DNA from: Janibacter sp. HTCC2649
Lineage (GTDB): Bacteria; Actinomycetota; Actinomycetes; Actinomycetales; Dermatophilaceae
NCBI RefSeq assembly: GCF_000152705.1
Contig: NZ_CH672413.1
Span: 372,001-436,000 of the forward strand
Direction of reading: 5' to 3'
DNA length: 64,000 bases
This document shows, piece after piece, positions 51,361 through 64,000 of this stretch. A model generated the notes under the pieces. It saw only the letters and a program-made list of their open reading frames with translations. It had not been told where the DNA came from and made no database searches. Numbering within the stretch: position 1 is the stretch's first letter; each line of letters starts with the position of its first letter. Position numbers and translations under genes: made by a program.

Positions 51361-52623
51361 TCACGTCACGGTCAGCCAGAGCAGGGCCATGACGCAGACT
51401 GCGGTCAGGGCGATCGTGACGAGGTGCCCCCCGGCCTGACGTCGGTTCGTCGTGAACTCGCCCATGACCGTCGGGTCACGTCCCAGGCGATACATGAAGA
51501 CCAGAAGGGGCAGCAGCAGCACGGTGTTGAGAACCTGGCTCAGGACGAGGACCGGGATGAGGGGCAGCCCCGGCACGAGCACGGTTCCGGCGGCGACAGC
51601 CACGACGGCCACGAAGCTGCCGTAGAACATCGGCGCTCGTCGGAAGCCGTCGTCCACCGCACCTTCGTGTCCGGTGAACTCGCAGACGGAGTATGCCGTT
51701 GACAGGGGCAGGACTGCGGCCGCCAGGAGCGCGGCGCCCACGAGCCCGGCACCGAAGAGATGGCTCGCGAACTGACCGGCCAAAGGCTCCAGTGCCGACG
51801 CCGCATCCGCGGCCGTCTCGATCGTGACTCCGCGGGCGTGCAGAGTCGCAGCGCTGGTCACCACGACGAAGAAACCGATGACTCCCGTGAGAAGGGAACC
51901 GATGAGGACGTCGAAGCGCTCGTAGCGCAGGTCTGCGGGGGTGAGTCTCTTGTCCACCGCGTAGGACTGGATGAAGCTGAGCCCCCATGGGGCAAGCGTG
52001 GTGCCGACCGTGGCCGTGACCACCAGCACCGCACCACGATCGATGGGGAGGCTGGGAACGACCAGACCCCTGGCCGCGGCGCCCCAGTCCGGTCCGACGA
52101 CGAACCCGGCAGCGATGTAGGTGACGAAGACGGCGGACAGCGCCATCAGCACGTGCTCCACGCTGCTGAACGTCCCCTTGAGAACGAGGACCGTCAGCAC
52201 CATCGCCGCGACGGGGACCGAGACATACCTGGACACCCCGAACAGCTCGAAACCCGCTGCCACACCGGCGAACTCGGCCGCGGCAGTGCCGACGTTCGCG
52301 ACGAGCAGGAGCACCAGGGCGAGCGAACCGAGGCGTACGCCGTAGCGGTCACGGACAAGTCCGATGAGGCCCTGCCCGGTCACGACCCCCATGCGGGCAC
52401 CGAGAGTGTGGAAGATGATCAGGGCCACCGTGGACGCGAGCAGGACCCAGAGCAGCTGGTAGCCGTACTCCGCGCCGAGGACGCTGTAGGTGGTGATGCC
52501 GGCGGGGTCGTCGTCCGAGAGTCCGGCCAGTAGCCCCGGTCCCACGACCGCCAGGAGGAGCCCGAGGCGAAACCGTCGGGTGACCCGGGGCGTTCGTCGC
52601 GGCGACGTGGTCGGAGCGGTCAT
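51361..52623 (-). CDS. NRAMP-related divalent cation transporter (non-canonical, NRMT-like)
   Basis: A 420-residue membrane protein with 11-12 helices in the NRAMP fold. The two metal-binding motifs are altered. The TM1 motif DPGN reads DDDPAGITTYS, and the TM6 motif MPH reads LAPWGLSF, so the soft-metal methionine is replaced by alanine. Those changes resemble NRAMP-related magnesium transporters (NRMTs) rather than manganese/iron transporters. The start overlaps the preceding gene as ATGA. That gene encodes a PRC-barrel/MgtE-N protein, further suggesting magnesium. Confidence 0.85.
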   Translation of the reverse strand: MTAPTTSPRRTPRVTRRFRLGLLLAVVGPGLLAGLSDDDPAGITTYSVLGAEYGYQLLWVLLASTVALIIFHTLGARMGVVTGQGLIGLVRDRYGVRLGSLALVLLLVANVGTAAAEFAGVAAGFELFGVSRYVSVPVAAMVLTVLVLKGTFSSVEHVLMALSAVFVTYIAAGFVVGPDWGAAARGLVVPSLPIDRGAVLVVTATVGTTLAPWGLSFIQSYAVDKRLTPADLRYERFDVLIGSLLTGVIGFFVVVTSAATLHARGVTIETAADAASALEPLAGQFASHLFGAGLVGAALLAAAVLPLSTAYSVCEFTGHEGAVDDGFRRAPMFYGSFVAVVAVAAGTVLVPGLPLIPVLVLSQVLNTVLLLPLLVFMYRLGRDPTVMGEFTTNRRQAGGHLVTIALTAVCVMALLWLTVT

Positions 52624-53546
52624 GTGTCACCGTCGCTACGGTCCGTGGGTCCGGTGCCAGGAGCCGCGGGTGGTGACGATGCGAGGGGCGGGAGGCGGCG
52701 CCATCCGGATGTTCGGCGGAAGCGACGGTGGTGCAGGGCTGGCGGCTGAGCCAGGTGGACAGTCGCGTCGGCGCGGACCCGGGGCGGCAGGGTTGCGAGC
52801 ATGGGTGTCGCCTCCTCGGGCCCGAGCGCCTTCAACAACCGTGCTGCTGTGAGGGGGTGGCTTCGGTGCACTGCCGTCGCGGCCCGTTCCGGGTCGATCG
52901 CTCGGAGGAGCCCAGCCGCATTGCCGGTGCTCAGGCGGGCCAGCAACTCGGCCAGGTCACCGGCGTCGAGCTGGCGGTAACCAGCCGTCTCCGTCGCGAG
53001 CTGGACCGTGTGTGCCCGAGGGGAGGTGAGGTGCAGGTCCTGCCAGTCGACTGCCGGGTGCGAGTGGTGACGAACGAAGCTGCCCAGTCCGAGACGGGGC
53101 AGGATCGCCATCAGGCCGAGCCGGACGGCGGCGACCTCGGGGCTGCCGTCGTCGCGTTCCACCAGGACGACCTCGGCCACCCGCGAGAGCCGTTGCCCCT
53201 GAAGGTCGACGACCTGCGTGTCCAGGACATCGCGACGCAACAGGATCTCTGCCGGAGCGAGGTCGGGAGGGCCGGGTTCGGGTGCACCACACGGGGGAGC
53301 GTTCGTGAGGACGATCGCGTCGTCCGTGACGTTGTGGACGGCGCTCCACGGCACCATCAAGGACGTGTGGCGGTCGGGGCGCACGAGGAGCCGTTCCAGG
53401 TCGGGGTGTGGCATGCCGAGGTGGATGGAGACGTCCTCGAGTCGACCCACCTCCGCCCCGTCGTGGGTGCGCACGGGTCGGCCCAGCAGGTCCGTCAGGG
53501 TTCCGAAGCGGCCCGTGGGCACGGAGCCGGTCCGGCGCGGTGACAT
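52620..53546 (-). CDS. PRC-barrel / MgtE N-terminal-domain protein
   Basis: A 308-residue soluble protein. Residues about 15-75 and 85-165 look like PRC-barrel-type beta domains (LLGRPVRTHDGAEVGRLEDVSIH, then VVDLQGQRLSRVAEVVLVERDDG). Residues about 185-265 match the MgtE intracellular N domain, a helical repeat that acts as a magnesium sensor in MgtE (LDAGDLAELLARLSTGNAAGLLRAIDPERAATAV). No membrane channel domain is present, so it probably regulates the adjacent transporter. ATG 53546 is preferred: it lies 36 nt from a DosR-like box and 7 nt from GACGAT. ATG 53555 is the alternative. Confidence 0.8.
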   Translation of the reverse strand: MSPRRTGSVPTGRFGTLTDLLGRPVRTHDGAEVGRLEDVSIHLGMPHPDLERLLVRPDRHTSLMVPWSAVHNVTDDAIVLTNAPPCGAPEPGPPDLAPAEILLRRDVLDTQVVDLQGQRLSRVAEVVLVERDDGSPEVAAVRLGLMAILPRLGLGSFVRHHSHPAVDWQDLHLTSPRAHTVQLATETAGYRQLDAGDLAELLARLSTGNAAGLLRAIDPERAATAVHRSHPLTAARLLKALGPEEATPMLATLPPRVRADATVHLAQPPALHHRRFRRTSGWRRLPPLASSPPAAPGTGPTDRSDGDT

Positions 53547-53582
53547 GTCGTCCATCGTCGACCGGAACGGTGCTGCAGCACA

Positions 53583-53596
53583 GGGGCCAAGGTCCT
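53583..53596 (-). promoter_or_regulatory. DosR/DevR-like box upstream of the PRC/MgtE-N-NRMT operon
   Basis: On the minus strand AGGACCTTGGCCCC; it differs from the ideal GGGAC-N4-GNCCC pattern at its first base. Its edge is 36 nt from ATG 53546, matching the spacing at three other genes of the island. Three tandem AGGTC copies follow to 53634. Confidence 0.45.
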
Positions 53597-53632
53597 GACG
53601 TCAGGGCCCGAGTCCAGCCAGGTCAGGTCAGG

Positions 53633-56353
53633 TCAACGCGTGTCGCTGAGACTGGTGCCTTCGGCCAGCACCGCGGCCCGCCCAACCTCGAGACGCGCCA
53701 CGGGCACCCGAGGCGGTGAGCAGGACACGTAGTCGAGGCCGCAGTCCACGAAGAAGGCGATCGAATCCGGGTCGCCAGCCTGCTCACCGCAGGCGCCCAG
53801 TTCCAGGTCCGGGCGGGTCCTGCGTCCGCGTTCCACCGCGATCCGGATGAGCTCGCCCACGCCGCGAGGATCCAGGGTCGTGAACGGGTCCTTCGGGAGT
53901 ATGCCGTCGCTCAGGTAGGTCGAGAGGAAGCCGGTTTCGGCGTCGTCTCGAGACATGCCCCAGGTCGTCTGGGTGAGGTCGTTCGTGCCGAACGAGAAGA
54001 ACTCCGCGACGGTCGCCAGGTCATCAGCGCACAGGGCTGCGCGTGGCAACTCGATCATCACGCCCACCGGAGGCGTTGGGAGGTCGGATCCGAGCGCCAA
54101 CACCGTTGCCACGGCCACCTCGACGATGCGGCTGCGGGCGGACACCAGCTCGGCGACGTCGCTGACCAGCGGGACCATGATCTCGGGGCGTGGGTTGCCT
54201 CCGGCGGCGTCCAGCTGGTGGGCTGCGGTGACGAGTGCACGAACATGGACGTCGACGAGCTCGGGGTGCACGGTGAGCAGACGCACCCCGCGCAGCCCGA
54301 GCATCGGATTGGACTCTCGCCACCGACGAGTGGCGTCCAGACGAGTGCGCAGGACGTCGGACACCGGCTTGCCCGCACCCTCGAGGAGGGCTACGGCCAC
54401 CGCCAGGCCTTCCGGATCCGGAAGGAACTCGTGCAGCGGCGGATCGAGCAGCCGCACCACGACCGGCAGTCCGTCCATGACACGCAGCAGGCCCGTGAAC
54501 TCCTGAACCGCGAGCTGCTCCATCCGCGCCAACGCATCCTGCGCGCCGATCCCGAGGATCACGTTCTCGACCAGGGCGCGGCGGGAGCCGAGGAGCATGT
54601 GTTCGGTGCGGCACAGGCCGATTCCCGTGGCGCCCGCAGCCCGGGCAGCGGCTGCCTCGTCGGCCGTCTCCGCGTTGGTGCGCACCTTCACCGTGGCGCG
54701 CTGGTCGGCGTGCTGCAGGATCCTGCGCACGGCAGCCAGGACGCGTTGGTCGGCGCCGTTCCCCGGACCCTCCGGGTCCGAGGCATCCTCGACCGTCATG
54801 AGGCCGCCTGCGACCGGCCCCGGACGGACGGCGAGGGAACCGGCATACACCGTTCCTGTCGTGCCGTCGACGGAGACGACGTCGCCCGTTCGCAGAACGT
54901 CGCCCGCTGCAGTGACGGCTTGCCCTGCGAGCTCGTCGACGACGAGCCCGGCGACTCCGGTGACGCAGGTGCGCCCAAAGCCCCTGGCCACGACGGCGGC
55001 GTGCGACGCGAGGCCGCCCCTTGCGGTGACGACGGCCACCGAGGCGAGGATGCCGTCGAGATCCTCTGCGCTGGTCTCGGTGCGCACGAGGACGACATCG
55101 TCGCCGGCAGCGCGCCGGGCGACTGCGGTGTGCGGGTCGAACACGATGCTCCCGACTCCGGCGCCTGGGCTGGCCGGGAGTCCGGTCATGAGTGGCCTGG
55201 CTCCGCCCGGGACCTCGAACGTGTCGTGAAGGAGAAGCTCGAGCTGTCGACCACCGACCCGGACGAGGGCCTCGTCCTCGGACACCAAACCCTCCTCGGC
55301 CATGTCGGCGGCGATGACGAACGCGGCAGCAGGGCTGCGTTTGCCCACTCGGGTCTGGAGGACGTAAAGGGTGCCGTCCTGGACGGTGAACTCCACGTCG
55401 CACAGGTCTCGGTAGTGCTTCTCGAGGGTGGAGATGTGGGAGAGCAACTCGTGATGGGCGCCGGGTTCACGTCCTGCCATGTGGGCGAGGGACAGGGTGG
55501 CCTGGCTGCCGCTCACGACGTCCTCACCCTGAGCCTCTGGCAGATAGTCGCCATAGGGTTCGGGATCTCCGGTGGCGGGGTTGCGACTGAAGCACACGCC
55601 CGAGCCGGAGTGGGGCCCGCTGTTGCCATAGACCATCTGCATGACGGTGACGGCCGTCCCGAGGTCGCCGGAAATACCTTCGTGCCGCCTATACACCTGC
55701 GCCCTGATGCTGTTCCACGAACTGAACACGGCGTCGATGGAGCTGGTCAGTTGTTCCCACGGGTCCTGGGGCAGGTCCAGCCCCGTTGTTGCGACGAGAG
55801 CCCGGCGGTGGGCAGCCACCAGCGAGCGCAGGCCAGCGACGTCCAGCTCGGCGGTCGCGGAGACACCCTGCTCGGCGAGCACCCCGGCGCGCACGGCGTC
55901 GATGGACGTTGATGGCACACCCAGTACGGTGCGGCCGTACATCTCGACGAGTCGCCGGTAGCAGTCCCACACGAACCTCGGGTCCTGCCGCAGCACCATT
56001 CGCTCCACCAGCGCATCGGTCAACCCGACGTCGAGCACGGTCTCCATCATCCCGGGCATCGAGAACTTGGCACCCGAGCGAACGGAGACGAGCAGGGGTC
56101 GGTCACCCTCCCCGAAGGCTCGACCGGTCGAACGCTCGAGGTCGGTGAGCGCCTTGCGGACCTGGTCGTCCAGTCCGGGCGGACGATGCCCGTCCTTCAG
56201 GTAGCGGCGACAGGCCTCGGTCGTGAGGGTGAAGCCCGGGGGGACGGGCAACCCGAGCCGGGTCATCTCGGCGAGGTTGGCCCCCTTGCCGCCGAGAAGA
56301 TCGGTCATCCCACGTTCTCCATGGGCGAAAGGGACGAGGAGTGACACATTCAT
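53633..56353 (-). CDS. ppdK: Pyruvate, phosphate dikinase
   Basis: A 906-residue three-domain enzyme that interconverts pyruvate, ATP and phosphate with PEP, AMP and pyrophosphate. The N-terminal ATP-grasp domain has GGKGANLAEMTRLGLPVPPGFT and SVRSGAKFSMPGMMETVLDVG. The phosphohistidine domain has TARGGLASHAAVVARGFGRTCV (catalytic His). The C-terminal PEP barrel has GLCRTEHMLL, FFSFGTNDLTQTTWGMSRDD and the catalytic Cys in VSCSPPRVPVARL. ATG 56353 fits the family N-terminus and places a DosR-like box 35 nt upstream; no Shine-Dalgarno is visible. It may run glycolysis reversibly with pyrophosphate under energy limitation. Confidence 0.94.
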   Translation of the reverse strand: MNVSLLVPFAHGERGMTDLLGGKGANLAEMTRLGLPVPPGFTLTTEACRRYLKDGHRPPGLDDQVRKALTDLERSTGRAFGEGDRPLLVSVRSGAKFSMPGMMETVLDVGLTDALVERMVLRQDPRFVWDCYRRLVEMYGRTVLGVPSTSIDAVRAGVLAEQGVSATAELDVAGLRSLVAAHRRALVATTGLDLPQDPWEQLTSSIDAVFSSWNSIRAQVYRRHEGISGDLGTAVTVMQMVYGNSGPHSGSGVCFSRNPATGDPEPYGDYLPEAQGEDVVSGSQATLSLAHMAGREPGAHHELLSHISTLEKHYRDLCDVEFTVQDGTLYVLQTRVGKRSPAAAFVIAADMAEEGLVSEDEALVRVGGRQLELLLHDTFEVPGGARPLMTGLPASPGAGVGSIVFDPHTAVARRAAGDDVVLVRTETSAEDLDGILASVAVVTARGGLASHAAVVARGFGRTCVTGVAGLVVDELAGQAVTAAGDVLRTGDVVSVDGTTGTVYAGSLAVRPGPVAGGLMTVEDASDPEGPGNGADQRVLAAVRRILQHADQRATVKVRTNAETADEAAAARAAGATGIGLCRTEHMLLGSRRALVENVILGIGAQDALARMEQLAVQEFTGLLRVMDGLPVVVRLLDPPLHEFLPDPEGLAVAVALLEGAGKPVSDVLRTRLDATRRWRESNPMLGLRGVRLLTVHPELVDVHVRALVTAAHQLDAAGGNPRPEIMVPLVSDVAELVSARSRIVEVAVATVLALGSDLPTPPVGVMIELPRAALCADDLATVAEFFSFGTNDLTQTTWGMSRDDAETGFLSTYLSDGILPKDPFTTLDPRGVGELIRIAVERGRRTRPDLELGACGEQAGDPDSIAFFVDCGLDYVSCSPPRVPVARLEVGRAAVLAEGTSLSDTR

Positions 56354-56388
56354 GTCGCGATCGTCGCGCGCGGATGACGGAGCGGACA

Positions 56389-56402
56389 GGGACTTTGGGC
56401 CC
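56389..56402. promoter_or_regulatory. DosR/DevR-like box upstream of ppdK
   Basis: GGGACTTTGGGCCC on the plus strand matches the core of the mycobacterial DosR box (GGGACTWWAGTCCC) at 12 of 14 positions. It lies 35 nt upstream of ATG 56353 on the minus strand, overlapping the expected -35 region. Confidence 0.65.
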
Positions 56403-56453
56403 GCGCTGTGCGCCACCGTCCGGGACCGGGCGAGGTCAACTCCTCCTCATGTG

Positions 56454-56467
56454 GGGACCAAGGACCC
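56454..56467. promoter_or_regulatory. DosR/DevR-like box upstream of the universal stress gene
   Basis: GGGACCAAGGACCC, an imperfect palindrome of the same 14-bp form, stands 36 nt upstream of ATG 56504. GATGCT, 7 nt before that ATG, could be the -10 element. Together with the box at 56389 it makes the ppdK/usp divergent region doubly occupied. Confidence 0.6.
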
Positions 56468-56503
56468 ATCCCTGATCCCCGAGTGAGGGTGATGCTCGGT
56501 GGC

Positions 56504-57436
56504 ATGGAGACAACCAGGGAGAGCGAGAGGGGGCCAGTCATGGTCGCCAACACGGGCCAATACACGGTGGTCGTCGGGTGTGACGGCTCCTGGGACAGTT
56601 TTCGGGCGGTGGACCTGGCGGCCCGCGAAGCCCTTGGTCATGGCTGCCGCCTGACGGTGCTCGTCGTGCCGCGCGATGACCCGCCGGGCAGCGACGAGCC
56701 CCTGTCCGGGTACTCGGCGGCCGAGGACCGAGGACGGTCCCGGGCTCAGGTGACTGCCCACCTTGCGCGGGAACGTGCACTGGCGGCGGCCCCGGACCTG
56801 GGCGTGGACATCGTGGTGGATGCGGTCGACGGCCCCGCAGTGGAGGCGCTCGCCCAACGAGCCATGATGCTCGTCCTCGGTGGACGGGGACGCGGTGGCC
56901 AACGAGCGCTGTCCCTCAGTTCGCCCAGTGACGAGTTGGTGCGACACCTCCGGGTACCGATCCTGATCCCGGGGGTGCGGTCTCCCGTGCCGTCCACCGT
57001 TCCGCACGCGCCCCACGTCGTCGTGGGGGTGGACGGGCGTGGTGGAGAGGAAGAGCTGATCAGCATCGCCGCGGTCGAGGCAGCGGCTCGCGGCTGCTGT
57101 CTGGTGATCGTGCGCGTGGTCCGTCCGGACCCCGCGGGCGGCGGCCTGGCTCGTCCGCACATCTGGGACGAGACCTGGATGGCGGTGCACCAGGCAGATA
57201 CGGCTGCGTCCGTGTCGTGTCGAGTGGTGGTGACGGTTGGCGACCCAGTGACGGCGCTCACCGACGAGTGCGGACCCGAGGACCTGCTCGTTGTGGGCAC
57301 ACGTGGTCAGGGGCGCCTGGCCGGACTGGTGCCGGGGTCCGTGGCCCGCGGTGTCCTTGACGTCGGCACCCGCGATGTCATGGTCGTGCCACCGGCCGCC
57401 CGTGACATCGCCACCCGACATCCATCGGTGCAGTGA
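56504..57436 (+). CDS. Tandem universal stress protein
   Basis: A 310-residue protein of two UspA domains (about residues 17-165 and 175-302). The second carries the nucleotide-binding-like GTRGQGRLAGLVPGSVARGVL motif (GxxGxGx9GSVA); the first has a degenerate GGRGRGGQRALSLSSPSDELV. Tandem Usps are frequent members of dormancy regulons. ATG 56504 fits the box spacing; ATG 56540, with GAGAGGGGG upstream, is a plausible alternative. It overlaps sulP by 4 bp (GTGA). Confidence 0.87.
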   Translation: METTRESERGPVMVANTGQYTVVVGCDGSWDSFRAVDLAAREALGHGCRLTVLVVPRDDPPGSDEPLSGYSAAEDRGRSRAQVTAHLARERALAAAPDLGVDIVVDAVDGPAVEALAQRAMMLVLGGRGRGGQRALSLSSPSDELVRHLRVPILIPGVRSPVPSTVPHAPHVVVGVDGRGGEEELISIAAVEAAARGCCLVIVRVVRPDPAGGGLARPHIWDETWMAVHQADTAASVSCRVVVTVGDPVTALTDECGPEDLLVVGTRGQGRLAGLVPGSVARGVLDVGTRDVMVVPPAARDIATRHPSVQ

Positions 57437-59148
57437 ACCGCCCCTGGACGACCGGCAACCTGCTCCACCTGCGTCGGTACGACCGGGCGTGGCTGCGAGG
57501 TGACGTCGTCGCGGGACTGACGGTCGCGGCATACCTTGTCCCCCAGGTCATGGCGTATGCCGAGATCGCCGGTCTGCCCGCCACCGCGGGATTGTGGGCG
57601 GCCGTTGCGGCGCTTCTCGTCTACGCCGTCCTGGGTTCGTCCCCGCAGTTGTCCATCGGTCCGGAGTCCACGACGGCGCTCATGACGGCGGTGGCGCTGG
57701 GCGGTCTGGCGGCAGGCGACCCCGCAAGGTACGCCGTGTATGCCGCCAGCCTCGCCATCGTCGTCGGTGTCCTCTGCATCGTGGCCGGGGTGGCTCGGTT
57801 GGGTTTCGTTGCCGAACTTCTGTCGCGACCGGTCCTCGTGGGATACATGTGCGGGATCGCGGCCCTCATGGTCGTGAGCCAGCTGGGCCACCTCACGGGG
57901 CTGACCGTGAAGGATGGCTCGGCGGCGGCTGAGGTCACGCAGGTGGCCCGACATCTCGGTGAGCTGCACGCACCCACCGTCATCCTCGGGTTGATCGTTC
58001 TCGCCCTGCTGTTGCTGCTCGCTTGGAAGCTGCCACGCCTTCCAGGACCGCTGCTCGCGCTGCTCCTCGCCTCAGCGGCGGTCATCGTCCTGGGTCTCAG
58101 GAGCCGCGGCGTGCTCGTCATCGGGCCGGTCGACTCGGGCCTCCCGGACGTCCGGGCGCCGCACCTCCATCCGACGGATCTCGCCCTTCTGGTGCCCGCC
58201 GCCGTGGGTGTGGCCCTCGTGGGGTTCACGGACACGATGCTGACGGCGCGAGCGTTCGCGAGTCGCCGTGGGGACCACATCGACAACAACCAGGAGCTCC
58301 TCGCGCTCGGAGTGGCGAACGTGGCCGCCGGTGTGGCACAGGGGTTTCCGGTGAGCAGCTCGGGCAGTCGCACTGCCCTCGGCGTTGCCGCCGGGAGCCG
58401 CAGCCAGGTGCATTCGCTCGTCACCGTCGTGGCCGTGCTGCTCGCCGTCACGCTGGGTTCGAGGGTCATCTCGGCCGTGCCGGTTGCGGCACTGGGCGCC
58501 GTGGTCGTGTATGCCGCGACCCGCCTCGTCGACGTCGCTGACCTTCGGCGGATGGCCCGGTTCAGGCGGACCGAGCTGCTTCTGAGCGTCGTCACGGCCG
58601 GGGGAGTCATGGCCCTCGGTCCGCTCACGGGGATCCTCGTCGCCGTCGGTCTGTCCGTCCTCGATCTTCTGCACAGGGTGGCACGACCCCATGACGGCAT
58701 CCTCGGCTTCGTGCCAGGACTTGCGGGCATGCATGACATGGACGACTACCCAATGGCGGAGCCCGTGGCTGGGCTCGTCGTGTACCGCTACGACTCGCCC
58801 CTGTTCTTCGCGAACGCCCAGGACTTCCTCCGGCGGGCGCTGGTCGCGGTCGACCGTTCGCACACACCGGTGCAGTGGTTCCTCCTCAATGCCGAGGCGA
58901 ACGTGACCATCGACATCACGGGACTCGATGCCCTCGTGAGGCTCGACGAAGAGCTGCAGCGCCGGGGGATCGTGCTGGCTCTGGCCCGGGTGAAGCACGA
59001 GCTGCGAGCCGACCTGGAACGAGGTGGGTTCCTCGAGCGAATCGGTGACGCACACGTGTTCATGACCTTGCCGACGGCTGTCGCGGCCTACGTCGGTTGG
59101 TACCAGCAACGGCATGGGCGGGCCCCCGAGGGAGCCGTCGGGTCCTGA
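57433..59148 (+). CDS. SulP-family anion transporter with STAS domain
   Basis: A 571-residue inner-membrane transporter. Residues about 20-425 carry the SulP membrane domain (VVAGLTVAAYLVPQVMAYAEIAGLPATAGLW and GSSPQLSIGPESTTALM). Residues about 450-560 are the cytoplasmic STAS domain (VYRYDSPLFFANAQDFLRR, then NVTIDITGLDAL). Substrates of the family include sulfate, bicarbonate and dicarboxylates; here the choice is open. GTG 57433 overlaps the Usp stop, so it shares the box-controlled transcript. The last 89 bp overlap the convergent ybhN-like gene. Confidence 0.92.
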   Translation: MNRPWTTGNLLHLRRYDRAWLRGDVVAGLTVAAYLVPQVMAYAEIAGLPATAGLWAAVAALLVYAVLGSSPQLSIGPESTTALMTAVALGGLAAGDPARYAVYAASLAIVVGVLCIVAGVARLGFVAELLSRPVLVGYMCGIAALMVVSQLGHLTGLTVKDGSAAAEVTQVARHLGELHAPTVILGLIVLALLLLLAWKLPRLPGPLLALLLASAAVIVLGLRSRGVLVIGPVDSGLPDVRAPHLHPTDLALLVPAAVGVALVGFTDTMLTARAFASRRGDHIDNNQELLALGVANVAAGVAQGFPVSSSGSRTALGVAAGSRSQVHSLVTVVAVLLAVTLGSRVISAVPVAALGAVVVYAATRLVDVADLRRMARFRRTELLLSVVTAGGVMALGPLTGILVAVGLSVLDLLHRVARPHDGILGFVPGLAGMHDMDDYPMAEPVAGLVVYRYDSPLFFANAQDFLRRALVAVDRSHTPVQWFLLNAEANVTIDITGLDALVRLDEELQRRGIVLALARVKHELRADLERGGFLERIGDAHVFMTLPTAVAAYVGWYQQRHGRAPEGAVGS

Positions 59149-60178
59149 GCCCGAGCCGTCGACCGAACCACCAGGCCAGCAGCAGTCCTCCGACGGGGAC
59201 CTCCATGCCGACGACGAAGATCCGATAGAGCAGAACTCCACCCGCGGCGGTTGCCTGGTCGACGCCCGAGGCAACCAGGAACCCGGTCATGCCGAGCTCG
59301 ACGATCCCCGTGGCTGCGGGCGAAATGACAGCGAGGGAGAGCACTCGCTCTGCGGCGAAGGTCGCGAAGACGATCACGAGGGGAGGCTGGGAGCCCAACA
59401 GGCGCAGGCACAACCACAGCAGAACGGCTTGGAGCGCGGCATACGCCGCCTTGCCGATGGTGAGCCGAGTGCAGGCGCCGGCGATGAGCTCGGCCACGGA
59501 ACGTTGCGCGGACACTGCCGTGGAGGCGTAGCTCGAGCCGCGCGGCCGCAACCGGTCAACTCGGTGCGTCACCCGATCGGCGAGCTGCCCGGCTCGCCGT
59601 GCCCATGACTCGGTGCGGAGAGCGGCGATCGTGAAGACCATGAGGCCCGCCAGGAGGCCGGACGCACCCAGCCCCGCGTCCCTCATGGCCCGGGAGGGCG
59701 AGCCGTCGAGCACGAGCCAGACCAGGGCGATTCCTGGGACAGCGAGCCGGGACAACACGTCCCAGATGTTCGTCACCAGTGCCCAGCGAAGGAACTCGGC
59801 CGTGCTGAAGCCCCACCTCCTGGCGGACAGGAGGTTGACCGCCGAGCCAACCGCGCCGCCGAGGGGGAGCACGTTCGACACCGCGCTGCCCGTGATGTTG
59901 AGGAAGAACGCCCGGCGGTGGTTCAGTCCGGGAAGGGCGGCTGACAGGGCGATGGTGTGCAGCCAGAGCCCGGCCAGCCAGACAGCCGCGAGAAGGACGG
60001 TCCCGGGAGTGGTCACAGTCGAGAGGACAGTGCCGATCTGATGCCAGCTCGCCCCAGCGACTCGCGGAAGGCCGAAGGCGAGCAGGCAGGCCGCGAGCGC
60101 GACGGCCAGGACCGCTTCACTCTGACGGCGCACGGTCGCCCACCGTGTGGGTGGAACCTCCAGGGTGGCCTCGTCCAT
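59060..60178 (-). CDS. YbhN / lysylphosphatidylglycerol synthase-type membrane protein
   Basis: A 372-residue integral membrane protein with about eight helices in the UPF0104/LPG-synthase membrane pattern (FFLNITGSAVSNVLPLGGAVGSAVNLLSARRWG; VISPAATGIVELGMTGFLVASGV). It has no C-terminal aminoacyl-transfer domain, so it may be a lipid flippase-like or regulatory protein. It is the third gene of the xfp-ackA operon, sharing one base with the ackA stop, and overlaps sulP tail-to-tail. Confidence 0.85.
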   Translation of the reverse strand: MDEATLEVPPTRWATVRRQSEAVLAVALAACLLAFGLPRVAGASWHQIGTVLSTVTTPGTVLLAAVWLAGLWLHTIALSAALPGLNHRRAFFLNITGSAVSNVLPLGGAVGSAVNLLSARRWGFSTAEFLRWALVTNIWDVLSRLAVPGIALVWLVLDGSPSRAMRDAGLGASGLLAGLMVFTIAALRTESWARRAGQLADRVTHRVDRLRPRGSSYASTAVSAQRSVAELIAGACTRLTIGKAAYAALQAVLLWLCLRLLGSQPPLVIVFATFAAERVLSLAVISPAATGIVELGMTGFLVASGVDQATAAGGVLLYRIFVVGMEVPVGGLLLAWWFGRRLGLRTRRLPRGPAHAVAGTNRRRPRQPSARS

Positions 60179-61317
60179 CAGGGGTCCATTGCGCTCGCTC
60201 GCAGCCCTGCACTCGCGCGTTCCAACACGCCCGCCGACGCTCGAACCATCTGCACTTCCTCGCGAGCGCGGACGACGTGGACCCGGCAGGGCGCCGATGC
60301 CTCGGCGATGTCGCGGTCGTACGTGTCGAGGTTGGCGTTGCGCTCCTCGTCGATGTGCACTCCGAGGTGACCCAGGCGGGCGGCAGTGGCGCCTCGGATC
60401 TGGGCGGAGTTCTCGCCGATACCGCCCGTGAACACCAGCGCATCCATCCCGCCCGCTGCCGCCGCCATGGCGCCGATGCTGAGGACGAGGCGGTGGACGA
60501 AGACCTCGACGGCCAGCTGGGCCCGATCAGGCTCGGGGCCCCGGCGGCACCGCGCCATGACCTCGCGCATGTCCGAGGTGCCGGCCAGCGCGAGCAACCC
60601 TGACTCGTGTTCGAGGGCTTCGAGGGCTCGTGCGCTCGACACGCCGTGGTGGACCTGGAGCCAGGGGATCAGTCCGGGATCGACCGACCCGGACCTGGTG
60701 CCCATGACGAGACCGTCCAGCGGCGTGAAACCCATGGTGGTCTCGACGCTCTGCCCGTCCACGGTGGCGGCGAGGGAGCATCCGGACCCGAGGTGTGCCA
60801 CGACGACGCGACCGTGCCGTTGCCCGAGGAGCTCAAGGGCTCGCCGGGAGGAGTAGGCGTGGGACAGGCCGTGGAAGCCGAACCGACGAACCCCCCAGGC
60901 CTCACGCCACTCGGCCGGAATGGCCAGGGTCGTGGCGGCAGGCCCAAGAGTGCTGTGAAAAGCGGTGTCGAATACGGCCACGTGGGGGACATCGGGCATC
61001 CCAGAGCCCAAGGTGTCGATGACCGAGAGAGCTCGCCGCTGGTGGTCGGGTGCGAGGTCCGAGAGCTCACGGAGAGCCAGCAGGACGTCGTCATCGATGA
61101 GCACTCCCTCGCGAAAACGGTTGCCGCCATGCACGATTCGATGGACCACGACCTCCGGTGGTGGAGATGCCGACACGGCGGACGTCACTGCGAATGACAG
61201 GTCGCCCTCGGCAACGGAGCCCCCTGCCGAGAGGTCCACCGACGACACCACACCCTCGCCCTCGAGCCAACGCAGCTTCACCGAGCTGCTGCCGACGTTG
61301 ACCGTGAGGACGGTCAT
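60178..61317 (-). CDS. ackA: Acetate kinase
   Basis: A 379-residue ASKHA-fold kinase. Motifs are the N-terminal [43 protein letters not shown] and [13 protein letters not shown]. It converts acetyl phosphate plus ADP to acetate plus ATP. ATG 61317 overlaps the xfp stop as ATGA. It is therefore directly coupled to phosphoketolase, which makes the acetyl phosphate: a short ATP-yielding bypass of glycolysis. Confidence 0.95.
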
Positions 61318-63692
61318 TCCTGCACGGAGGTGCTGGTGGCAGGCCACGACCAGTTCGCGATGGCCGGGTGGTCCTCACCGTGGACCCTCGTGTAGTCGCG
61401 GGCGGCCAATCGCGCGTCGGCCATCTCCTGGCGCAGACCCGCTGACACCTCGCTCAGCTGGGGCACCCGGTCGATGACGTCCATGACGAGATGGAAGCGG
61501 TCGAGGTCGTTGAGCATCACCATGTCAAAGGGGGTCGTCGTCGTGCCCTCCTCCTTGTAGCCGCGGACATGGATCTGGGGGTGCGCGTGGCGTCGGTAGG
61601 TGAGGCGGTGGATGAGGCCGGGATATCCGTGGAAGGCGAAGATCACGGGGCAGTCCGGCGGAAAGAGAGCGTCGAAGTCACGGTCGGACAAGCCGTGCGG
61701 GTGCTCGCTGTCCGGTTCCAGACGCATGAGGTCGACGACGTTGACCACGCGCACGCGCAGGTCGGGCAGTCGGTGCCGAAGGATGTCGGCGGCCGCAAGG
61801 ATCTCGAGCGTCGGGACGTCGCCGGCGCAGGCCAGGACGACATCCGGATTCGCTCCTCCATCCGTGCTCGCCCACTCCCACAGGCCGAGCCCACGGGCGC
61901 AGTGGGCATCGGCCTGCACCGGATCAAGGAAGGTCAGCGCGGGCTGTTTGCCGGCCACGATGACGTTGATGAGGGAGCGCGACCGGAGGCAGTGCTCGGC
62001 GACGCTGAGCAGGGTGTTGGCGTCCGGCGGCAGGTAGACGCGGACGGTCTGTGCCTTCTTGTTCACGACGTGGTCGAGGAAGCCGGGGTCCTGGTGAGAG
62101 AACCCGTTGTGGTCCTGCCGCCAGACGTGCGAGGTCAGGAGGTAGTTCAGTGAGGCGATGGGCCGACGCCACGGCACTTCGGCGGAGACCTTCAACCACT
62201 TCGCGTGCTGGTTGAGCATGGAGTCGACGATGGGGATGAAGGCCTCGTAGCAGTTGAAGAGTCCGTGTCGGCCGCTGAGCAGGTAGCCCTCGAGCCAGCC
62301 CTGGCAGAGGTGTTCCGACAACACCTCCATCACGCGCCCGTCGACGTCGAGGTGGTCGTCTCCGGCGCGGATCGGGAGGGCCCACGCGCGCCCTGATTGC
62401 TCGAAGATGGCCTGCAGCCGATTGGACGCGGTTTCGTCAGGGCCCATGACACGGAAGTTGTGAGGGTTGTCGCGCACCACATCGCGCAGCCACGGGCCGA
62501 GCGCCCCTGTCGCAGAGCGCAGTTCGCGAGCCGGCTCGCCGACGGGCACCTGGTAGTCGCGGTGCGCCGGCAGCACGAGGTCACGCAGGACGACTCCGCC
62601 GTTTGCGTGGACGGACGCGCTCATCCGCAGTTCGGGGGCAGGCGCCAGCGCACGGATCTCGGCGCGGACGGCTCCCACCTCGTCGAAGAGTTCCTCCGGA
62701 CGGTAGGACCGCAGCCAGTCCTCGAGGAGTCGGAGATGCTCTGGGTTCGTCCGGGGGGCGGCGATGGGCACCTGGTGCGAGCGGAACGAACCTTCGACTG
62801 TGTGGCCGTCAACCGTGGCCGGTCCGGTCCAGCCCTTCGGGGTGCGAAGAACGATCATCGGCCATTGGAGGGGATGGCCGGCGCCCGTTCCGCGGAGCTC
62901 GGCGAGGCGAAGGTATGCCGTGTCGAGGGCATCCGCTAGCGCCTCGTGCACTGCCACGGGGTCATCGCCCTCGACGAAGAGCGGGTCGTGGCCATGGCCG
63001 ATCAGGAGCGACCTGAGCACGCTCTCGGGCTGGCGCGCGAGGACCGTGGGGTTGGCGATCTTGTAGCCGTTGAGGTGGAGGATCGGCAGGACCGCACCGT
63101 CACGGGCCGGGTTGATGAAGGCCGTCGACTGCCAGCTCGCGGACAGGGCTCCGGTCTCGGCCTCGCCGTCACCGATGACGCACGCGACGGTGAGGTCGGG
63201 GTTGTCGAAGGCCACGCCGTAGGCGTGGGCCAAGGAGTAGCCCAGCTCGCCGCCCTCATGGAGCGAGCCCGGGGTGTGCGGAGACGCGTGGCTGGGGATG
63301 CCGCCGGGCGAGGAGAACTGGCGAAACAGCCGGGTGAGTCCCGCCGTGTCACCGGTGATGCTGGGGAAGAGGTCCGAGTAGGTGCCGTCGAGGTAGGCAT
63401 TCGCGACGACGGCCGGCCCTCCGTGCCCCGGCCCGGCGATGAAGACCGTCGGCGCGGCATGACGACGGATGGCGCGGTTGAGGTGGGCCCACAGGAGGTT
63501 CAACCCGGGTGAGGTGCCCCAGTGGCCCAGAAGGCGCGGCTTGATGTGCTCGGCCGCGAGGGGTTCTCGGAGCAGGGGGTTGTCGCGCAGATAGATCTGG
63601 CCGACGGAGAGGTAGTTCGCGGCTCGCCACCAGGAATCGACCCCCTCGAGGTCAGTCAGTGCTGCGGCGGGGGCAGGTGCGAGAGTCGTCAT
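61314..63692 (-). CDS. xfp: Xylulose-5-phosphate/fructose-6-phosphate phosphoketolase
   Basis: A 792-residue thiamine-diphosphate enzyme of family-typical length. Signatures include [38 protein letters not shown], the [31 protein letters not shown] motif and GDGEAETG (ThDP/Mg site). It cleaves sugar phosphates with inorganic phosphate to acetyl phosphate. The start ATG 63692 is supported by the family N-terminus and by a DosR-like box exactly 35 nt upstream; the open frame beyond it has no similarity. It heads an operon with ackA and the ybhN-like gene and is divergent from a DosS-like gene. Confidence 0.95.
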
Positions 63693-63727
63693 GCCACCAA
63701 CGTTCACCAGACGAGGACCACCGTGGA

Positions 63728-63741
63728 GGGCCTTTGGTCCC
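63728..63741 (-). promoter_or_regulatory. DosR/DevR-like box upstream of xfp
   Basis: On the minus strand GGGACCAAAGGCCC, 35 nt upstream of ATG 63692, the same distance as at ppdK. It lies in the divergent region shared with the DosS-like gene. Confidence 0.65.
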
Positions 63742-63790
63742 TGTTCGGGGTTTCTGACGTCCTTTGAGTGCGCTCGGAGGGTGAGCGGCA

Positions 63791-63796
63791 TACATT
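63791..63796 (+). promoter_or_regulatory. -10 element of the DosS-like gene
   Basis: TACATT is 6 nt from ATG 63803, indicating a leaderless transcript; it overlaps a GTATGCCG-family copy (CGGCATAC). Confidence 0.4.
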
Positions 63797-63802
63797 GAGC
63801 GC

Positions 63803-64000
63803 ATGGCCGACAAGCGTTCGCGAGGCCAGATTCCCAAGGACTCGGCAGAGTCGGCCACAGCTTCGCTCTGGTCAGCCTCCTCGCTGCAGCTCGATGATCT
63901 GCTCGAGGAGCTGCGAGCCCGGGCCGGTAGTGCGCGCGAGTCACAGGTGCGCATGGCGTCGTTGCTCGACGCGGTCGTGGCGGTCAGCTCCGACCTCGAC
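63803..64000 (+). CDS. Probable DosS/DevS-type GAF sensor histidine kinase (5' part only)
   Basis: The frame runs from ATG 63803 off the window end, 66 codons with no stop. The visible sequence ends ...[19 protein letters not shown] after an acidic helix ([15 protein letters not shown]). This pre-GAF helix followed by LLDAVV.V.SDLDL is characteristic of the N-terminus of actinobacterial DevS/DosS-like heme or redox sensor kinases. The kinase part is not visible, so the call rests on this short match and on four DosR-like boxes nearby. Confidence 0.6.

Follow-up and report, generated by a model that had tools for sequence, protein, structure and literature searches.

Four 14-bp boxes stand at a fixed distance ahead of the genes for pyruvate phosphate dikinase (ppdK), a universal stress protein (usp), a xylulose-5-phosphate/fructose-6-phosphate phosphoketolase (xfp) and a protein with PRC-barrel and MgtE_N domains (the PRC gene) in the 4.24 Mb genome of a member of the genus Knoellia, family Intrasporangiaceae (C1:372001-436000, the whole 64,000-nt stretch analysed, is called the window here). 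These boxes are very probably sites for the Knoellia orthologue of DevR (DosR), the dormancy regulator of Mycobacterium, activated by a DevS/DosT-type kinase and set in class II promoters that are partly leaderless. The predicted regulon draws together the orthology and key residues of regulator and sensor, the enrichment of the box, its co-occurrence with devR, a rigid geometry, a peak of ATG codons at one distance and a scarcity of Shine-Dalgarno sequences there; from these we infer DevR binding, hypoxic induction, the 5' ends of the transcripts and a metabolic benefit. An initial annotation of the window had read the boxes as a DosR/DevR-like regulon, an interpretation that is supported in outline.

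That annotation placed the boxes 35-36 nt upstream of the four start codons, and all four are where it put them. On the reverse strand, the ppdK box (56389-56402; GGGCCCAAAGTCCC when read towards ppdK) is a quasi-palindrome that ends 35 nt before the ATG at 56353, the xfp box (63728-63741), which also lies upstream of a divergent kinase gene, ends 35 nt before the ATG at 63692, and the weak box of the PRC gene, AGGACCTTGGCCCC (53583-53596), ends 36 nt before the ATG at 53546, with a second in-frame ATG at 27 nt. On the forward strand, the usp box (56454-56467) ends 36 nt before the ATG at 56504. Each is followed by a candidate -10 element: GACGAT (56360-56365) for ppdK and AACGTT (63699-63704) for xfp, both at -12 to -7 of the ATG; GACGAT (53554-53559) for the PRC gene, its last base 8 nt before the ATG and its spacing from the box that of the family; and, alone on the forward strand, GATGCT (56491-56496) before usp. 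The four promoters are also matched by R1, a sequence-only promoter model spanning the box, 6 nt before it and 36 nt after it, which was built from 59 of 69 sites in the window island and in relatives, with A at 24 nt and T at 28 nt past the box, the other ten candidates being left out without a fixed rule. The ppdK (C1:428355-428406, E 1.4e-5), usp (C1:428454-428499, E 0.012) and xfp (C1:435693-435744, E 0.0048) sites belong to its training set; that of the PRC gene (C1:425550-425595, E 0.0014) does not. In all four genes the longest open frame begins upstream of the chosen ATG (by three codons in the PRC gene), so that the choice of start matters, and the box geometry indicates that the start codons of the initial annotation were rightly chosen throughout.

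Across the genome the box is rare and clustered. The strict pattern GGGACYWWNGNCCC has 12 exact sites against one for the reversed pattern, and seven of the 12 lie at C1:428389-444124, within 16 kb around devR. R1 yields 15 promoters at E<0.05, the next match having E 0.68: ten at C1:425550-444127, three at 2565045-2571787 and one each at 2886102 and 3069707. Eight of the 15 are training sites; the remaining seven are the weak PRC box, a usp box ahead of devR (437495), four distal matches of near full length and the match at 2886102, which covers the box part only. A genome scan with a box model had been proposed as a check on random distribution, and what it gives is a concentration around devR. 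A further form, GGGACCNNNGGNCC with one mismatch, is not commoner than its reversed control (764 versus 934) and was dropped as evidence.

The regulator lies 2.5 kb past the window end, in a stretch (L009, C1:425001-445000) that covers the end of the window and the DNA beyond. There devR (forward strand, L009:13513-14178, window-equivalent 66513-67178) stands two genes on from the start of the kinase gene, in the neighbourhood where the initial annotation suggested that dosR be sought, so that the DosR-type regulator on which its proposal depends is present. Searched against PDB, as were all proteins matched to structures here, its product finds DevR (3c3w) at E 2.1e-60, with VraR next at 6.6e-36; Pfam, the source of all domain calls, gives a receiver (PF00072) and a LuxR-type GerE domain (PF00196). 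Counted in the alignment, it keeps the equivalents of Asp54 of 3c3w, which we take to be the phospho-acceptor, and of Lys179, Lys182 and Asn183, presumably DNA contacts, together with the KTVKNY recognition region. The kinase gene (forward strand, from window 63803 to window-equivalent 65494, L009:10803-12494), divergent from xfp, encodes two GAF stretches followed by HisKA_3 and HATPase, and its GAF-A matches those of DosT (2vzw, E 1.3e-48) and DevS (E 7.9e-44). Alignments show that GAF-A keeps the His of HPPM (His149 in DevS, His147 in DosT) and the Tyr of LYLTDK (Tyr171/Tyr169), which passages of PMC4082495 describe as the proximal and distal residues respectively, and that the position of DevS Glu87 is taken by Gly, as at Gly85 of DosT. 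By its sequence the kinase is a DevS/DosT-type haem sensor, with haem binding and switching by oxygen, nitric oxide or carbon monoxide as predicted properties. A separate TACATT stands at -12 to -7 of the ATG of the kinase gene, which looks leaderless, apparently from a promoter in which the box shared with xfp lies further upstream, 61 nt from that ATG (L009:10728-10802, window 63728-63802).

Boxes and devR also travel together across the family, where DevR relatives at E<=1e-40 occur in 95 of 149 genomes. In a scan of 99 genomes at E<=0.01, with stricter filters that lose weak matches, R1 finds sites in 48 of the 59 genomes with DevR at E<=1e-58, and still in 37 of 48 once genomes that gave training sites are excluded, versus two of the 40 without a strong DevR, three of which have a weaker DevR match (37/48 versus 2/40, Fisher P 1.6e-12). 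Exact boxes average 8.0 in 25 strong-DevR genomes and 2.7 in 11 without (P 0.0008), a difference that composition may partly explain since the reversed control leans the same way (3.2 versus 2.1, P 0.085). Within the genus, eight devR-bearing genomes carry 6-29 R1 matches at E<=0.5, although six of the eight gave training sites, and G092, alone in lacking DevR at E<=1e-40, yields a single marginal match (E 0.48). It is very unlikely that the boxes serve another NarL/LuxR-type regulator, or a repressor whose palindrome is similar. The genome does encode a further related response regulator (C1:2100154-2100798, 41% identity), and GGGAC-type palindromes are simple, but the sites cluster around devR and devS, are nearly lost in family genomes where DevR is not found, and face a regulator whose recognition region is intact.

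The distance from box to start codon proves to be a general trait of devR loci. It was examined in 116 stretches (2.19 Mb), made up of 115 devR loci and L010, a neighbouring stretch from which no rows came, after six devR loci with many 40-mers in common with other loci had been dropped; they hold 165 boxes (330 site-directions), and the reversed-pattern control has no site. When every ATG opening at least 80 codons past each exact box was counted in both directions, without preselecting gene starts, 50 fell at 34-37 nt (29 at 35 nt and 15 at 36 nt), against 0.65 per neighbouring position, and these belong to 50 different site-directions in 40 loci. A sparse stretch follows, with 12 ATGs over the 15 positions from 38 to 52 nt, and then a broad group of 82 ATGs, from 73 site-directions, at 53-75 nt. 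All 29 members of the 35-nt class have A at -11 and T or A at -7, which places a -10 element at exactly -12 to -7 if the ATG is +1; among all 50, A and T/A stand at 24 and 28 nt past the box in 36 cases and at 25 and 29 nt in 12 more. Counted over 329 site-directions, an A followed four positions later by T is most frequent at 24 nt past the box (97, most other positions being near 6), the next maxima being 24 at 25 nt and 22 at 46 nt. Because the pair at 24 nt recurs in site-directions that lack an ATG or GTG at 33-38 nt (56 of 232, against about 5 at most other positions), a single promoter type is indicated, of which only the leader differs.

If the ATG is taken as +1, a box separated from it by 35 nt occupies -49 to -36 and has its centre at -42.5. 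The fixed distance would then be class II DevR promoter geometry joined to leaderless mRNA, the 5' ends being placed by the -10 element: the box would lie 35-36 nt before the start codon because class II spacing is combined with a transcription start at the ATG. The second predicted class is one with the same spacing of box and -10 element plus a leader, often with a Shine-Dalgarno sequence, and a tetramer of that kind precedes 43 of the 82 ATGs at 53-75 nt versus six of the 50 at 34-37 nt (Fisher P 2e-6). Passages of PMC5360333 describe a comparable arrangement for DrrS of Mycobacterium tuberculosis, where a DosR site 34 bp upstream of the mapped start overlaps the -35 region and is likened, at a canonical distance, to class II sites, while sections of PMC3898074, PMC6448022 and PMC8022548 give mycobacterial -10 elements as TANNNT or YANNNT and transcripts starting at the start codon as 24-40%. 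That the 35-36 nt instead reflect an upstream start with a short leader lacking a Shine-Dalgarno sequence is distinctly unlikely. Such leaders are common in actinobacteria, a canonical Shine-Dalgarno sequence being present in only 47% of leadered M. smegmatis genes according to a section of PMC6448022, and six peak genes do have a similar tetramer; yet the A at -11 is invariant in the 35-nt class, the same spacing without a start codon at 33-38 nt pins the transcription start of the first class to its ATG, and the sparse stretch parts the two classes.

Leaderless transcripts are accordingly predicted for seven of the 15 Knoellia promoters, those of the PRC gene, ppdK, usp, xfp, the usp before devR, a pyridoxamine-oxidase-like gene (443278) and a BON-domain gene (2571740), a share not far above the mycobacterial one, so that we make no claim that DevR favours leaderless genes. 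What leader type does follow is gene identity: among boxed genes near devR, where a gene counts as leadered or other unless it has a start at 34-38 nt, the leaderless share is 20/25 for the pyridoxamine-oxidase-like pnp2, 7/14 for usp2 and 23/54 for devR, and 2/30 for usp3, 1/13 for xfp, 0/12 for the CBS gene and 0/9 for the DoxX-like gene. Among the matches listed from the open-licence literature, none linked DosR/DevR to leaderless starts or to phosphoketolase control, and the one paper listed on universal stress in Knoellia was unrelated.

Taken as a mechanism, the DevR reading would run as follows. Falling oxygen, or nitric oxide or carbon monoxide, would lead the haem sensor kinase next to xfp to activate DevR, and phosphorylated DevR would bind the 14-bp box. 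With its centre at -42.5 relative to the transcription start, the box would overlap the -35 region, and activation would be of class II. RNA polymerase would then use a -10 element of the form NANNN(T/A), its A 24-25 nt past the box. In seven of the 15 promoters transcription would start at the ATG within about 1 nt and give leaderless mRNA, while most of the others would add a leader to the same spacing. In low oxygen the island would thereby supply universal stress proteins, PPDK, the phosphoketolase-acetate kinase operon and ion and anion transporters, and hypoxic induction with a physiology sparing adenosine triphosphate (ATP) and pyrophosphate, as the initial annotation proposed, could be the outcome.

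The genes that recur under the box were counted near devR in 114 loci, the Knoellia genome itself excluded and at most one mismatch allowed. Boxed were xfp in 13/16, the DoxX-like gene in 9/10, cbs in 12/18, pnp2 in 26/39, usp3 in 30/50, usp2 in 14/27, usp1 in 2/4, devR in 54/116, ppdK in 4/7, devS in 21/96 and pnp1 in 2/11, beside 116 of 3000 random windows; the DUF1003 homologue was not (0/1). The xfp count began with 18 devR-linked genes, two of which were dropped for having less than 150 nt upstream, and in all 13 boxed cases an A and T/A pair faces xfp at 23-26 nt, although many are from Micromonospora and so not independent. It is rather unlikely that the box beside the Knoellia xfp serves the divergent devS only, leaving xfp without DevR control. 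The box does sit between xfp and devS, and a box is missing from 29 of the 32 xfp genes that were examined in other genomes without selection for devR; but a -10 element at the family spacing faces xfp, with the ATG at 35 nt, whereas no such element follows the box at 23-26 nt in the devS direction, devS having its own TACATT, and devR-linked xfp genes are mostly boxed with the pair facing xfp. The comparison set consisted of 34 loci, one of them dropped for a short upstream stretch; of its three boxed xfp genes two are in the Micromonospora clade and one has a weak site without a -10 element, and xfp in general was rejected as a DevR target.

Nor do the boxed phosphoketolases form one DevR-specific family, a candidate explanation that was likewise rejected. 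In an xfp tree of 51 rows, from which a boxed Arthrobacter gene (L058) was left out as too short, 15 of 50 rows are boxed (L205, with a weak site, excluded) and the boxed state changes five times, occurring in Knoellia with an Intrasporangiaceae metagenome-assembled genome, in Micromonospora, in Actinoplanes on a distinct deep branch and in Dactylosporangium; such scatter means repeated gain or repeated loss. Phosphoketolase appears to be one recurrent new target of DevR regulons. Four congeners (G141, G017, G065 and G111; L202-L205) have xfp from other branches, 57-64% identical, and no devR or devS match within these loci of roughly 5 kb. Rhodococcus equi has both homologues of the DosR regulon and an Xfp, with no link stated between them in the passages of PMC2947987 at hand.

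Several observations weigh against the DevR reading. The devR loci were selected for the presence of devR, and the sites behind R1 for the 24-nt spacing, so that its -10 part is built in, as the ATG peak and the A-to-T position count are not. The DevR reading does not account for the secondary peak of that count at 46 nt (22/329, and 18/232 among site-directions with no start codon at 33-38 nt). In the window the loose pattern GGGACNNNNGNCCC with one mismatch is not enriched (34 found, 67.9 expected from shuffles) and, being rarer than in shuffles, was dropped as evidence. Under the stricter filters 11 of the 59 devR-bearing family genomes have no R1 match, and two genomes without a clear DevR, G022 and G030, have matches; G030, with three strong ones (best 2.2e-7) and no DevR at E<=1e-40, is 84% complete, and its DevR may fall in the missing part. 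Near devR sulP is boxed in one of five cases, homologues of ackA (0/5) and Nramp (0/1) in none, and those of the CoA-transferase in 0/9, or 1/9 with a wider upstream stretch. Among the xfp genes of the four congeners, three are unboxed and the fourth has a one-mismatch site lacking a -10 element.

Acetate kinase turns acetyl phosphate into ATP, and leaderless mRNAs can be translated by intact 70S ribosomes. Passages of PMC6456759 have phosphoketolase forming acetyl phosphate from sugar phosphates, and according to part of PMC5069765 acetyl phosphate phosphorylates OsdR, the Streptomyces regulator, in vitro. One might join these into a single, admittedly doubtful picture in which phosphoketolase was repeatedly recruited into non-mycobacterial DevR regulons, the acetyl phosphate made by Xfp under DevR control would keep DevR active without the kinase, AckA would turn the surplus into ATP, and intact 70S ribosomes would translate the leaderless half of the regulon's mRNAs while normal initiation runs low. 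The sign of this feedback could be the opposite, via acetylation of Lys182: in DosR that modification, to judge by a title, reportedly inhibits DNA binding, and the residue is kept in Knoellia DevR.

In M. tuberculosis, where a further sensor gene and additional, secondary boxes upstream are known, the DevR/DosR-DevS/DosT system resembles that of Knoellia in its orthologous regulator and haem-GAF kinase, its GGGAC..GNCCC palindrome and a box overlapping -35; Knoellia differs in having boxed PPDK and phosphoketolase-acetate kinase operons and a kinase gene divergent from xfp. In both, a usp gene immediately precedes devR (Rv3134c in M. tuberculosis; in the relevant part of PMC5069765). Streptomyces coelicolor OsdR/OsdK (PMC5069765) likewise has ppdK with a divergent usp (SCO0208/SCO0207c), a pyridoxamine-oxidase gene (SCO0214) and usp genes round the regulator, but its consensus is AGGGCCGATCGGCCCT as opposed to GGGACYWWNGNCCC, the box positions in Table 1 of that paper vary from +36 to -391 relative to the gene start where those of Knoellia are fixed, and the word leaderless is absent from its main text. 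The likeness to OsdR clusters seen in the initial annotation thus holds for the ppdK/usp pair and the pyridoxamine-oxidase-like genes, whereas phosphoketolase-acetate kinase finds no counterpart in the predicted OsdR regulon table, which lists ppdK, usp, pyridoxamine oxidase and nitrate reductase and no phosphoketolase (PMC5069765). Mycobacterial leaderless transcripts share with those predicted for Knoellia the TANNNT/YANNNT -10 element and a start at the start codon, although the surveys are genome-wide and, in the sections of PMC3898074, PMC6448022 and PMC8022548 at hand, make no tie to DosR promoter geometry. The dormancy switch of Mycobacterium and Streptomyces would extend to Knoellia as well as to the rest of its family, and annotation would gain a promoter rule (box, 24-25 nt, the A of the -10 element, then the ATG at once or a leader) that also settles where ppdK, usp, xfp and the PRC gene begin. 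In several branches of its tree, phosphoketolase, which yields acetyl phosphate and ATP without need of oxygen, would be controlled by an oxygen-sensing regulator, a form of control testable in environmental bacteria, and gene-specific leader types offer material on what leaderless mRNA is for.

The boxed genes of the window form short operons. On the reverse strand, the predicted leaderless PRC gene (52620-53546, frame from 53555; PF05239, PF03448) overlaps by 4 nt, as an operon, a gene for an Nramp-family transporter (51361-52623; PF01566); ppdK (53633-56353; PF01326, PF02896, PF00391) is predicted to be leaderless too. The usp gene (56504-57436, forward strand, predicted leaderless), with two Usp stretches (PF00582), has a 4-nt overlap with its operon partner for a SulP-family anion transporter with a STAS domain (57433-59148, forward strand; PF00916, PF01740). 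Back on the reverse strand, the predicted leaderless xfp (61314-63692; PF09364, PF03894, PF09363), whose product matches the 'probable phosphoketolase' 8io8 at E 0, is followed by ackA, for acetate kinase (60178-61317; PF00871), its ATG overlapping the xfp stop codon, and by the last gene of the operon, for an LPG_synthase_TM-like membrane protein (59060-60178; PF03706).

Beyond the window, in window-equivalent coordinates, come the usp before devR (65543-66490, forward), a CBS gene (67183-67776, reverse), an acetyl-CoA hydrolase/transferase gene (67879-69270, reverse) and another usp (69341-70225, forward), and further on two pyridoxamine-oxidase-like genes, a DoxX-like gene, named by eye as it has no Pfam hit, and a DUF1003 gene. 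A single box at L009:16263-16276 lies between that last usp and the divergent hydrolase/transferase gene, with a -10 element at 24 nt each way. Boxed usp genes start at window 56504, L009:12543, L009:16341 and L011:6970, the last in a second boxed cluster of the genome (L011:6970-13739, C1:2564970-2571739) with two usp genes, a short-chain dehydrogenase, a flavoprotein like pyridine-nucleotide-disulphide oxidoreductases, a DsrE-like protein and a protein with three BON domains, whose gene is predicted to be leaderless with 35 nt from box to ATG. Isolated boxed genes elsewhere encode a DUF305 protein (L013:6786-7406) and an MFS transporter (L012:4694-6136), the box of the latter standing without the -10 part of R1.

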